From IMG/VR virus record IMGVR_UViG_3300030333_004845, positions 1 through 28,387 of that record: a stretch of DNA of 28,387 nt; one strand, 5' to 3'. Made by a program: the position numbers and the translations under genes. The notes under the pieces are model-generated. The model made no database searches. It saw only the letters and a list, made by a program, of their open reading frames with translations, and had not been told where the DNA came from. Source of the DNA: a virus. Below, one piece after another: positions 25,578-28,387 of the stretch (the stretch's first letter is position 1; each line of letters opens with the position of its first letter).

Positions 25578-25979
25578 CTAATTTATTATAACATATTTTT
25601 TTTCTTTTTTCTCAGCTTCTTTTAGAGCACTTTCAGTTCCCTTTGATATGTGATTTTTCGGTATGAATGCAACCATTACATCTGTATATTCAGCTATTTC
25701 TTTATTTCGATTGTGGTAATGCCAGACAGCATAAGGTTTACCATAGTTATAACTTTCCAATACACAATGTTGATTATACTGATAATGAGCGGGTGGAAAT
25801 TCTGAATATTTTGTATCAAATTCTAAAGCATACTTTTTAGCATATCCATCAGCACCTTGTTTCTGTCCACCACTTACTATTTCTAATTCATCACCATATT
25901 TTTCTTTTAATTTATAAATAAACTCTTGTATTCTTCTTTTATTTGTATATTGTCTACTTCCTACTATTGCTACTTTCAT
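25578..25979 (-). CDS. SLOG-fold DUF2493 protein (YspA-like)
   Basis: SLOG-domain protein of the cpYpsA-related (DUF2493) group, which is thought to bind nucleotides or nucleotide-derived ligands. Numbered from ATG 25979: VAIVGSRQYTN (3-13, the G-S-R strand-loop), IVSGGQKQGADGYAKKYA (34-51, the S-G-G-x5-G-A-D loop) and a C-terminal VMVAFIPKNHISKGTESALK with the conserved K-G-T-x-S/x-A. GAGGA lies six bases before 25979; the in-frame ATG at 26033 has nothing comparable. 133 aa is usual. Such genes are frequent in phages, role uncertain. Confidence 0.8.
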   Translation of the reverse strand: MKVAIVGSRQYTNKRRIQEFIYKLKEKYGDELEIVSGGQKQGADGYAKKYALEFDTKYSEFPPAHYQYNQHCVLESYNYGKPYAVWHYHNRNKEIAEYTDVMVAFIPKNHISKGTESALKEAEKKEKKYVIIN

Positions 25980-26385
25980 AATCATTCCTCTTCTGCCTTT
26001 TAGGTGGCTTTTCTGATGTGCAGAATTTAGCACATTTATGAAATTCTTTTAAACCATCCAGTATATCTTCTTCCCTATTATAAGTATATTGAAATCGAAC
26101 TCTATTAGTCTTATCAGCATTTTTTTGATCAATAATATCGTACCAAACAAAATCATTATACTTTAATTCATCACCCACTTTTATATTAGTCTTAAAATGT
26201 AAATGAGATTCATATTTTATTAAAAAATTCTTTATATCATCTGGCTTTAAAGATCCATCCTCATACCACAATGTTAAATAATATGTAATACTATCCTTAT
26301 GAATACTTTCCAATTTATCTATAACTGATTCTTCAATTGCTTTATCTAAAAAATGAGATAGATTCATTCTAAGATTTACTTTCAT
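25954..26385 (-). CDS. Hypothetical protein, 143 aa
   Basis: Unrecognised, mixed alpha/beta protein with an opening MKVNLRMNLSHFLDKAIEES, a central alternation (SHLHFKTNIKVGDELKYNDF) that looks like a beta-barrel or OB-like stretch, and a very basic, disordered C-terminus (KPPKRQKRNDYESSNSRK). Two Cys (CAKFC) lie just before that tail. ATG at 26385 is joined to the nuclease gene by a TGATG overlap, with GGGAG upstream. It overlaps the SLOG gene by 26 bases. No function can be given. Confidence 0.6.
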   Translation of the reverse strand: MKVNLRMNLSHFLDKAIEESVIDKLESIHKDSITYYLTLWYEDGSLKPDDIKNFLIKYESHLHFKTNIKVGDELKYNDFVWYDIIDQKNADKTNRVRFQYTYNREEDILDGLKEFHKCAKFCTSEKPPKRQKRNDYESSNSRK

Positions 26386-27251
26386 CACTTTACTCCCGCG
26401 TCACAATATTCTGTCTGATTGAACTCGCAAAATCTGCAGTTCTTTTTAGATGCTTCTTTTCTATAAATATGTTCTACATTATATTCTCCATCAGAAGTAA
26501 AACATTCTGTCATAAATTCATCCAACCTAGCAACTACTTTATTAATTGATGGTTTACCATTTGCTGGTACAAACTTCTGAACTCTCTTTTGTGGGTAATC
26601 TGTATGTTCCCATAACTTACGTTTAACTATAAAAAACTCAACTTCAATTTTATCTATTGGATGATTGTATTGTTTGGCATAAAATTGTTTATACAATAAT
26701 AATTGGTCACTCTTTAACTTATCAGCCTTCATATATTTATTCCAACCCATAGTAGAAGTCTTTATATCATATATTTTGATTACATCTCTAACTGTATCCT
26801 TTATCACTACATCCAAGTAACCAACAAATTTAATATTATTTGGCAAATCATAATTTAATGGAACTTCGATACCAACTAACTCATAACCTCTTTTACTAAA
26901 ATATTGTGATCTCTTCTTTCTAAGAAATTTAAGTATCTCTACACCTTGACTATAAAACTCAACCATATCACTTTCAGTACAAAACATTTCACCACCATTA
27001 GCTTCTACAATCTGTTCAAAGTTTCGTTTCATTCTAGTCCGTAACATATCTTCTAATGGTAATTGTTCTGCTAGCTTAGCAGTATCGTTATACATTACTG
27101 TTAGAAAAGTTTGTATAACCTCATGCATTGATGTTCCAAACATTGTATGAATACTATCAGAGTATTCTCTCTGTTCATCTATGTATGCAGTTTTCCATCT
27201 ATGTGGACATTGAGCCCACATTGAATACTGACTATATGATATATTCTTCAT
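26385..27251 (-). CDS. PD-(D/E)XK nuclease with predicted 4Fe-4S cluster
   Basis: Cas4/RecB-family nuclease-type exonuclease, 288 aa. The N-terminus SYSQYSMWAQCPHRWKTAY (5-23) is the family's S-x-x-x-x-x-x-x-C-P-x-x-x-x-x-Y block. MHEVIQTFL (42-50) gives the helical His; GYLDVVI (144-150) supplies the metal Asp147 and YDIKTS (161-166) the D-x-K (Asp162, Lys164). Four cysteines, Cys15, Cys272, Cys275 and Cys283 (NCRFCEFNQTEYC), match the one-plus-three arrangement of Fe-S clusters in AddB and Cas4. It may process DNA ends during phage recombination or replication. ATGA overlap with the upstream gene. Confidence 0.85.
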   Translation of the reverse strand: MKNISYSQYSMWAQCPHRWKTAYIDEQREYSDSIHTMFGTSMHEVIQTFLTVMYNDTAKLAEQLPLEDMLRTRMKRNFEQIVEANGGEMFCTESDMVEFYSQGVEILKFLRKKRSQYFSKRGYELVGIEVPLNYDLPNNIKFVGYLDVVIKDTVRDVIKIYDIKTSTMGWNKYMKADKLKSDQLLLYKQFYAKQYNHPIDKIEVEFFIVKRKLWEHTDYPQKRVQKFVPANGKPSINKVVARLDEFMTECFTSDGEYNVEHIYRKEASKKNCRFCEFNQTEYCDAGVK

Positions 27252-27652
27252 TTACCCCACTTACCATTCTTTACTATTGTAGCCATAATACCATAGTTAG
27301 ATACATCAAGAAATGCATCTTCCATTGGTTCACCTTCTACAGCATTACCACGACCACTCATTAGTAAATTCTTTAATCTCTGTATCTTATCGTTCATACG
27401 AAACCAAAGACCAGTAAGTGATAATTGTATCTCTTCTGGCGTCTGTAATTGTGTACCAACTGAAATATTACCAGGACCATAGTCATGTTGTTTGTGTAGA
27501 AACAACTCATATTGTTCTCGTTGTAATCTACGAAACTCAGCTGTCATCTGTGGCCATTCTTCTTCCATCATTGAAACAATATCACCACCCTTTTTATTTT
27601 CATATTGGGTAGCATACTTCTTTTTTGTTTTAGATTCTTTTATAGTTTTCAT
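27248..27652 (-). CDS. DUF1599 (Nmad1) predicted nucleotide-modification protein
   Basis: A DUF1599/Nmad1-domain protein, a family predicted from gene neighbourhoods to act with base-modification systems. Numbered from ATG 27652, it has EFRRLQREQYELFLHKQHDY (39-58, with the K-x-x-D-Y-G loop at 54-59), LWFRMNDKIQRLKNL (82-96, R-x-x-D-K-x-x-R motif) and EDAFLDVSNYGIMA (111-124, the E-D-x-x-x-D-x-x-N/x-Y-x end). The fold is helical and MazG-like. GGAG is well placed before 27652; the ORF-opening ATG at 27676 has no SD. A sigma70-type promoter candidate lies just upstream. 134 aa. Confidence 0.8.
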   Translation of the reverse strand: MKTIKESKTKKKYATQYENKKGGDIVSMMEEEWPQMTAEFRRLQREQYELFLHKQHDYGPGNISVGTQLQTPEEIQLSLTGLWFRMNDKIQRLKNLLMSGRGNAVEGEPMEDAFLDVSNYGIMATIVKNGKWGK

Positions 27653-27675
27653 TATAACACTCCAATTTACATGCA

Positions 27676-27705
27676 AATATACACATTTTTTAGTATATTA
27701 GTCAA
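27676..27705 (-). promoter_or_regulatory. Candidate sigma70-type promoter before the Nmad1 gene
   Basis: Read on the minus strand: a TTGACT -35 box (27700-27705), an 18-base spacer, and a TATATT -10 box (27676-27681), one and one mismatch from TTGACA/TATAAT. It overlaps the stop end of the Mom/DUF4338-like gene and is placed for transcription of the Nmad1 gene and everything downstream. It lies in one of the few gaps in the window (27653-27697). The match could be chance in AT-rich DNA. Confidence 0.4.
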
Positions 27706-28297
27706 GTCTTTTTATAAAAATTATTTTCTTATTTTCACCAGTCGGTGGTAAAAAAGTTTCTTTCAAATATTCAGCACTACTCCACTTTACTGAAAATGAT
27801 TTTCTCTCTTTCGCTAATCCAGCAGTTTCACCAATCTGTTTCCAGTTATCTGCCTTATAAACAGCACCATTATTGCCACCAGCTACGAAAGTAATTAACC
27901 ACTTCAAATCATCTCCATACTTTTTCTTCCACTCTATAGGTGCTTGTTTTCTAACCTGTTTCAATATCTGCGTTCCTGCATTTTTTATTGATTTTGTCAT
28001 ACAGAATCTCCAGTTATTCGCTATAGTATTAAAATATGCTGGTTCTTTATATTCATCTGCCTTCTTACCTAAATGATTTAATATATCTTTAGGACAAGGA
28101 TAAACAGAAGAACCAATTCCAATCATACCAATAGGTTTTTCAACACCTAATATATTAGTATAATCAGAATGGTATACTAACCAATCAATTCTTCTTCCGA
28201 CAGATTTATGACTAGGAACATAAGAATGATGGTTATTAATAATCTTCTTTACTAAGTTTGCGGCTGATTCTGTATTAACCATTTCTAGCGATATCAT
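27698..28297 (-). CDS. Mom/DUF4338-like (GNAT-fold) protein, 199 aa
   Basis: Resembles proteins of the DUF4338 (DruA) and Mom group. The second half has NNWRFCMTKSIKNAGTQILK (positions about 106-125), then WKKKYGDDLKWLITFVAG (141-158) and GAVYKADNWKQIGETAG (162-178), matching the N-x-R-F-L...Y-G...L-x-T-F-V-x...G-T-x-Y-x-A-A-N-W-x-x-x-G-x-T-x-G series of DUF4338 and the related Y-K-A block of Mom. The N-terminal half (IINNHHSYVPS) recalls Mom's entry motif. In phages such proteins can be DNA-modifying (Mom adds an acetamido-type group to adenine), and the Nmad1 gene next to it fits that. Start uncertain: ATG 28297 without SD, or ATG 28282 overlapping the upstream gene. Confidence 0.5.
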   Translation of the reverse strand: MISLEMVNTESAANLVKKIINNHHSYVPSHKSVGRRIDWLVYHSDYTNILGVEKPIGMIGIGSSVYPCPKDILNHLGKKADEYKEPAYFNTIANNWRFCMTKSIKNAGTQILKQVRKQAPIEWKKKYGDDLKWLITFVAGGNNGAVYKADNWKQIGETAGLAKERKSFSVKWSSAEYLKETFLPPTGENKKIIFIKRLD

Positions 28298-28387
28298 TTT
28301 TTATTTGTCTTTTAATTTTTTTATTTAGATAGTATGTATAAATATGTTTTGGTTTTCTCTTCTTAAAAAATATATTCGGGTCTCCTT
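28275..28387 (-). CDS. 3' end of a gene cut by the window edge
   Basis: An open frame enters from the right edge and ends at TAA (28277-28275), overlapping the beginning of the Mom/DUF4338-like gene. The last 36 residues (for example DPNIFFKKRKPKHIYTYY, then NDIARNG) are basic and aromatic, look like coding sequence, and contrast with the two other frames, which close soon after the edge or run without such content. Too little is left to name a family. Support is compositional only. Confidence 0.4.
   Translation of the reverse strand, partial: GDPNIFFKKRKPKHIYTYYLNKKIKRQIKNDIARNG

Follow-up and report, generated by a model that had tools for sequence, protein, structure and literature searches.

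Mom of phage Mu, the product of a late gene, carries out an adenine carbamoylmethylation of DNA with an anti-restriction role. Several Mom genes may occur in a single jumbo phage (five in PA5oct), where protection of the phage DNA has been proposed and where Mom is typically fused to a REase-fold domain (PMC7824862). The DUF4338 domain, to which DruA of the type I Druantia system belongs (PF14236), has already been stated to be a GNAT domain (PMC10853773), and a structure-based annotation has presented a protein of phage S-PRM1 as resembling Druantia DruA and as defence-like (PMC12774648). For Druantia DruA itself, no function was found in the literature that we searched. The families of Mom, through which phages protect themselves with an unusual base, and of DruA are usually treated apart. 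Here we describe a viral family, MDru, that links them. We read it, at a probability of about 0.55, as a Mom/DruA-superfamily enzyme of GNAT fold that modifies DNA, or as a partner of an adjoining Mom, marking new phage DNA against host restriction. New in this work are the bridging family, as judged from alignments and a predicted fold, and its recurrent placement beside replisome genes; the catalysis of MDru is predicted.

A tightly packed replication operon

The DNA analyzed (hereinafter the window) comprises bases 1–28387 of a 29,427-base IMG/VR record, itself a fragment. At its distal end lies a tightly packed run of genes, all on the minus strand. The first of these, Mom2 (28275..28387), is a canonical Mom gene of which the window includes only the part for the C-terminus. 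The last 36 codons of Mom2 (28275–28385, C-terminus GDPNIFFKKRKPKHIYTYYLNKKIKRQIKNDIARNG*) overlap the start of MDru by 23 nt; the remainder lies outside the window, continuing to about position 28910 of the record and interrupted by an NNNN gap, and its family is assigned on its homologues. MDru (27698..28297) has an ATG start and codes for a 199-aa protein predicted to adopt the GNAT fold. It is followed by Nmad1/DUF1599 (27248..27652), whose ORF reaches a TTG at 27676 (142 aa from the TTG); translation probably begins at ATG 27652, as a GGAG site precedes it and the conserved alignment starts there. Next come a PD-(D/E)XK exonuclease of the RecB/Cas4 type (26385..27251), which overlaps Nmad1 by 4 nt, a conserved 144-aa protein (25954..26388), and a SLOG-fold protein related to YAcAr/DprA (25578..25985; the ORF extends to 26033, with ATG 25985 as the likely start), all three of them core genes of the operon. 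The initial annotation had reported Nmad1 beside a Mom/DUF4338-like gene, with SLOG and PD-(D/E)XK genes in the same coupled block: both ORFs were confirmed on the minus strand and the other two genes were found in the same run. It had missed the canonical Mom 5′ of MDru and the clamp loader beyond that.

The wider gene order was read in the distal part of the record (L044), where the clamp loader is seen beyond Mom2, and in the sister contigs L002–L007 and L009–L012 as far as each extends. In these relatives it runs PolB, clamp, Mom1, clamp-loader large (CLlg), clamp-loader small (CLsm), Mom2, MDru, Nmad1, PD-(D/E)XK, 144-aa protein, SLOG, and two glycosyltransferases. Relatives of MDru are encoded in 292 viral contigs and those of Nmad1 in at least 564, and MDru homologues evolve under purifying selection (dN/dS of 0.08–0.26); hence, the MDru and Nmad1 ORFs are not chance ones. 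Beyond the replication operon, the window continues with a long run (2639–25105) of glycosyltransferase, sugar-nucleotide epimerase, aminotransferase, and methyltransferase-like genes; the GT4 pair at the start of this run also adjoins the PD-(D/E)XK gene in Flavobacterium phage immuto.

Sequence and structural affinities of MDru

As a single sequence, MDru is a borderline case: it scored 26.4 bits against DruA/DUF4338 (PF14236; cut-off 27, E=4.6e-6) as a protein and 27.3 bits in a six-frame search, matched the Mom-like phrog_1384 at 9e-7, and reached 14.1 bits with the Pfam Mom profile PF25680, under its cut-off of 27.1. A 26-member alignment, used as input for AlphaFold2, gave a model with a pLDDT of 87 and a pTM of 0.84. 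When this model was searched with Foldseek against 350,542 PDB chains, its best match was Mu Mom (8bv8; E=6.9e-6, TM 0.54–0.60), with other GNATs next; these TM-scores are moderate and those of other GNATs nearly as high. Profile–profile comparison with hhalign aligned MDru to Mom at 97.1% (E=5e-11) and to the long DruA-like proteins of phages (hereinafter DruA-long) at 96.9% (E=1.3e-10), and between Mom and DruA-long no direct homology was detectable by such comparison without MDru. We took family relations from the single-sequence and hhalign results, loosely iterated profiles of MDru and Mom being prone to mix. On these alignments, MDru is a family bridging Mom and DruA/DUF4338 and aligning about equally well with each. 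The label ‘Mom/DUF4338-like’, borderline on the single sequence, is clearly right when judged on the alignment and the predicted fold. GNAT-like blocks as in Mom and DUF4338 had been proposed earlier on sight of the translation; the profile alignments bear this out, and the model, examined for a structure outside the GNAT fold, is a predicted GNAT closest to Mu Mom.

The residues invariant across the 26 members are H24, Y26, R97, N106, G108, Y147, A149, and N151. Columns common to MDru and Mom include the His of the HY/HxY motif, located where helix 1 ends, a strand-4 Arg, the Asn of N-x-(E/G)-(S/T), and YxAxN, which is followed by W/F in MDru and Mu Mom alike. Both also have a hydroxyl residue at the putative catalytic-serine column: T109 of MDru, replaced by Ser in some members, aligns with the serine of the Mom N-x-E-S motif. 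This column is nearly always Ser in the Mom set and Ala in 8bv8; as that entry is described as ‘inactive mutant S124A’, the Ala would be the mutated catalytic serine, with the numbering inferred. Unlike Mu Mom, MDru scores under the Mom cut-off and lacks two acidic residues present without exception in the Mom set, namely the Glu of ELxRL (N94 in MDru) and the Asp of SxAD (A139 or Gly in MDru); hence, its catalysis may differ or be lost. MDru, related to Mom yet not classed as Mom, may accordingly have a different chemistry or give help to Mom.

Association with canonical Mom genes

The Mom genes beside MDru are unambiguous members of their family, with 150 bits for Mom1 and 138.9 bits and more for Mom2 homologues against PF25680, and an E-value of 1.5e-37 for the Mom-group alignment against the solved Mu Mom structure (8bv8). 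Like Mom2 in the window, which lies 5′ of MDru, canonical Mom directly adjoins MDru in at least four arrangements: CLsm-Mom2-MDru-Nmad1, UvdE-Mom-MDru, MDru-Mom2-RNR, and a DruA-MDru-Mom-Mom-Mom array. This array (L008:8075–11315, on the same contig as L132) comprises five Mom-superfamily genes in tandem and is a concrete instance of their kinship; its 233-aa DruA-like member, which adjoins MDru, scored 60.6 bits with DruA/DUF4338. Several Mom genes per phage are thus a feature shared with the jumbo phages; however, the Mom and MDru proteins here are free-standing rather than fused to a REase-fold domain, their genes are coupled to those of the clamp, clamp loader, and polymerase, and a DruA-type branch is included (compare PMC7824862).

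Many MDru phages carry no canonical Mom on contigs of 54–177 kb (G001–G003, G005–G007, G009, and G012); hence, MDru must often work without Mom. This bears on the idea that MDru is an inactive or regulatory paralogue of Mom that binds DNA and lends the neighboring Mom specificity or an extra subunit. Such a role would suit the tandem Mom-MDru pairs with overlapping frames and the loss of the acidic residues; yet it sits poorly with the phages that have MDru alone and with the retention of the Thr/Ser and the YxAxN motif, invariant or nearly so in MDru, and we regard it as quite improbable.

Recurrent placement beside replisome genes

In contrast to mom of Mu, a late gene, MDru sits in the replisome operon. 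Among 72 distinct MDru copies, 42 directly adjoin a replisome gene (PolB, clamp, clamp-loader, gp59, gp32, or primase), a count with some bias as the gp59 and gp32 labels were added after one locus had been seen; by our own estimate, with 7 replisome genes among about 240, a random gene would adjoin one in at most about 6% of cases. The MDru tree shows 17 changes of neighbor context. Besides the window-type operon, MDru occupies at least six positions, most of them beside replication genes: in addition to the UvdE and RNR arrangements given above, we recovered PolB-MDru-clamp-DruA-long-clamp loader, CLlg-MDru-CLsm, PolB-MDru, MDru-gp59, and primase-MDru. The reading frames at these loci mostly overlap by a few bases, typical values being –4 nt for CLsm/Mom2, MDru/CLsm, and MDru/gp59, –11 nt for PolB/MDru, and –23 nt for Mom2/MDru.

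Recruitment of MDru to the clamp by a C-terminal motif was considered and rejected: the phage polymerases end in an FF-type motif, which MDru, Mom, and DruA-long lack, and no clamp-binding peptide was found in these. Separately, a distant relative of MDru (33%) occurs in a Persephonella MAG (L211:6538–10179). It lies near an N4/N6 DNA methyltransferase, is followed by an HTH protein and a DnaC-like ATPase, and has an integrase-like gene in its vicinity.

Slots shared with DNA methyltransferases

At the positions of this operon that Mom/MDru fill here, sister phages encode N6/N4 DNA methyltransferases, which have a fold unrelated to that of MDru and a different, SAM-based chemistry. In the Nmad1-bearing lineage, the clamp-CLlg gap is empty in 21 loci and occupied in 16; of the latter, 15 have either Mom (8) or an N6/N4 methyltransferase (7), and the remaining one has a different gene. 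The CLsm-Nmad1 gap, visible in 75 Nmad1 loci, contains Mom in 14 (only 3 of these with MDru as well) and a methyltransferase in 12, with another gene or none in the rest. Where both gaps are visible (35 dereplicated contigs), we found Mom in both in 12, a methyltransferase in 6, neither in 17, and the two together in 0. As slot states change only 3–4 times on the tree of the Nmad1 lineage, this exclusivity rests on few independent events and is suggestive rather than statistically strong; it is also limited to these slots, since in the sister contig G008 a methyltransferase accompanies the Moms at another location.

ClpP, kinases, and oxidoreductases likewise enter these operons. For instance, a ClpP-type protease (L122:4582–5196 and 50 homologues) is found in three slots, CLlg-CLsm, CLsm-Nmad1, and Nmad1-PD-(D/E)XK. 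A cluster of 202-aa Fe(II)-dependent dioxygenase-like proteins (L100:7390–7998 and relatives; NF003974, 1e-8), with four copies in one locus, lies within the replisome operon and might represent further base modifiers or unrelated hydroxylases. The CLsm-Nmad1 slot, elsewhere holding Mom or a methyltransferase, is also filled by a protein of 123 aa that matches nothing in Pfam or NCBIfam (L125:7579–7950 and 14 homologues), a candidate modification or replisome protein.

Restriction pressure on the contigs of the Nmad1 set looks real from their composition: the observed/expected ratio of 4-mer palindromes is 0.77 with Mom, 0.83 with a methyltransferase, and 0.81 with neither. GATC is very strongly avoided in the Nmad1-bearing viral loci L047–L126 irrespective of carriage, with ratios of 0.26 (Mom), 0.29 (methyltransferase), and 0.17 (neither). 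We looked for relaxed palindrome avoidance in Mom carriers and saw none; as contigs lacking Mom avoid palindromes to much the same extent, neither relaxed restriction pressure nor a protective effect shows in composition.

A possible role in marking nascent phage DNA

The overlap of Mom with MDru in the operon, and the methyltransferases held by the same slots in relatives, support the DNA-modification and anti-restriction context that the initial annotation had suggested. Its further idea of hypermodification or nucleotide salvage was not supported for the pre-replicative, thymidylate-synthase type: no thymidylate-synthase-family gene (PF00303) was detected in 15 related contigs, which are fragments and possibly incomplete, and this argues against that route to a base modified at the level of the free nucleotide. 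As far as the fragments allow, we rejected such hypermodification.

Under the preferred reading, MDru would be translated together with the clamp loader, clamp, and polymerase, and Mom and MDru would mark phage DNA as it is made by an acyl-CoA chemistry on the base, as the analogy with Mom suggests; the marked DNA would then be protected from host restriction. Mom/MDru or, in relatives, DNA methyltransferases would be inserted as exchangeable protection genes in an operon where Nmad1, PD-(D/E)XK, and SLOG are permanent. Here, we infer the catalysis, substrate, timing, and anti-restriction effect of MDru, its activity being most likely, by analogy, an acyl-CoA-dependent base modification.

A GNAT in a replisome operon might instead act on proteins, for example by acetylating the clamp, the polymerase, or host factors, and so regulate the replisome or a host protein. 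RimI and Naa60 are among the close Foldseek matches of MDru, and its location and the missing acidic residues of Mom would be consistent with such an acyltransferase. Nevertheless, Mom is both its sequence-profile match and its top fold match, MDru repeatedly stands directly beside canonical Mom genes, and the slots are shared with enzymes that modify DNA; we consider action on proteins unlikely and continue to favor DNA as the target. The presence of a relative of both Mom and DruA in the replication cluster suggests chemical marking by the phage of its newly made DNA as a safeguard against host defences, and the clamp/clamp-loader cluster is a place to seek new DNA-modification genes.

Nmad1 and the core genes of the operon

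Nmad1 matched PF07659 (DUF1599/Nmad1) with 25.8 bits, just over the cut-off of 25 (E=1.4e-5), and phrog_1485 at 6e-13. Its model is all-helical, of low confidence (pLDDT 75), and without a significant match in the PDB; iMazG/DR2231 appeared in the fold search only at E-values of about 2–3 on this low-confidence model. As a candidate MazG-like hydrolase, it was compared by sequence, by profile against the neighboring MazG-like protein, and by fold, with nothing significant in any of these searches.

The initial annotation had paired Nmad1 specifically with the MDru gene, a proposal under which one protein would prepare a modified nucleotide and the other complete it. In its favor, the two genes adjoin in the lineage of the window, 14–36 nt apart, and Pfam calls the Nmad1 family ‘nucleotide modification associated domain 1’. 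The gene neighborhoods speak otherwise: Nmad1 relatives mostly lack Mom and MDru, as the slot counts above already indicate, and MDru mostly occurs without Nmad1, the two being neighbors in only 10 of 111 MDru loci. An obligate pair was rejected on these counts and, considering also the lack of a thymidylate-synthase-family gene in the 15 relatives and the poorly modeled Nmad1 structure with no PDB counterpart, a dedicated pair is highly improbable. In individual genomes, Mom lies 3′ of Nmad1 on contig G004, whereas on the 216-kb contig G014 Nmad1 is about 73 kb from two replisome Moms. Relatives that lack Mom retain the PD-(D/E)XK and SLOG genes, and Microcystis phage Mel-JY01 shows the order clamp loader-Nmad1-S-adenosylmethionine synthase, with PD-(D/E)XK later and no labeled Mom in the stretch read. 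Nmad1, PD-(D/E)XK, and SLOG are core genes of the replication operon, not an MDru module, and the key partners of MDru are the neighboring Mom and the replisome, not Nmad1.

DruA-like proteins of marine phages

Many viral contigs encode the intermediate family, and a search of 50,697 phage records (E 0.001–0.01) recovered no short MDru. Long DruA-like proteins were found in Synechococcus and Pelagibacter phages, at about 370–430 aa against the 199 aa of MDru. In S-PRM1 and S-SCSM2R the DruA-like gene has a clamp-loader gene on either side and is not part of a defence island. The S-PRM1 protein is of the long form and was read as defence-like (PMC12774648), whereas MDru is of the short form; both are phage DUF4338-family proteins, and the position of the S-PRM1 gene within the clamp-loader pair suggests a replication-linked role instead of defence.

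The initial annotation had offered, as a second option, a DruA-like defence element carried by the phage; such an element would act against competing phages. MDru does share homology with Druantia DruA, by the hhalign match and borderline Pfam score given above, and the Synechococcus phage proteins have been presented in that light (PMC12774648). Set against this, MDru lies in a virus replication locus rather than a defence island, no DruB–E partner, including the large DruE helicase, was seen in the window, whose longest ORF is 479 aa and whose record is a fragment, and PADLOC returned no hit for MDru. Together with the clamp-loader position of the S-PRM1 and S-SCSM2R genes, this leaves a Druantia-like function very little likelihood, and modification of phage DNA remains our preferred account of MDru.

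A broader proposal, which we advance tentatively and as a possibility that could well fail, is that Mom, short MDru, and long DruA-like proteins form a replication-coupled system, integrated in the polymerase-clamp-clamp loader operon, that marks nascent DNA. It would extend to the DruA-like genes of marine phages, so far labeled defence-like; if true, Druantia DruA would itself be a DNA-base modifier or descend from one, and MDru would have a new base chemistry, distinct from that of Mom. The kinship of MDru with both Mom and DruA suggests a route to the function of DruA. Outside phages, a DruA-like domain also occurs in a protein annotated as an ISAs1 family transposase on the plasmid pTs485 (L216:2396–3730), upstream of a DNA methyltransferase gene.
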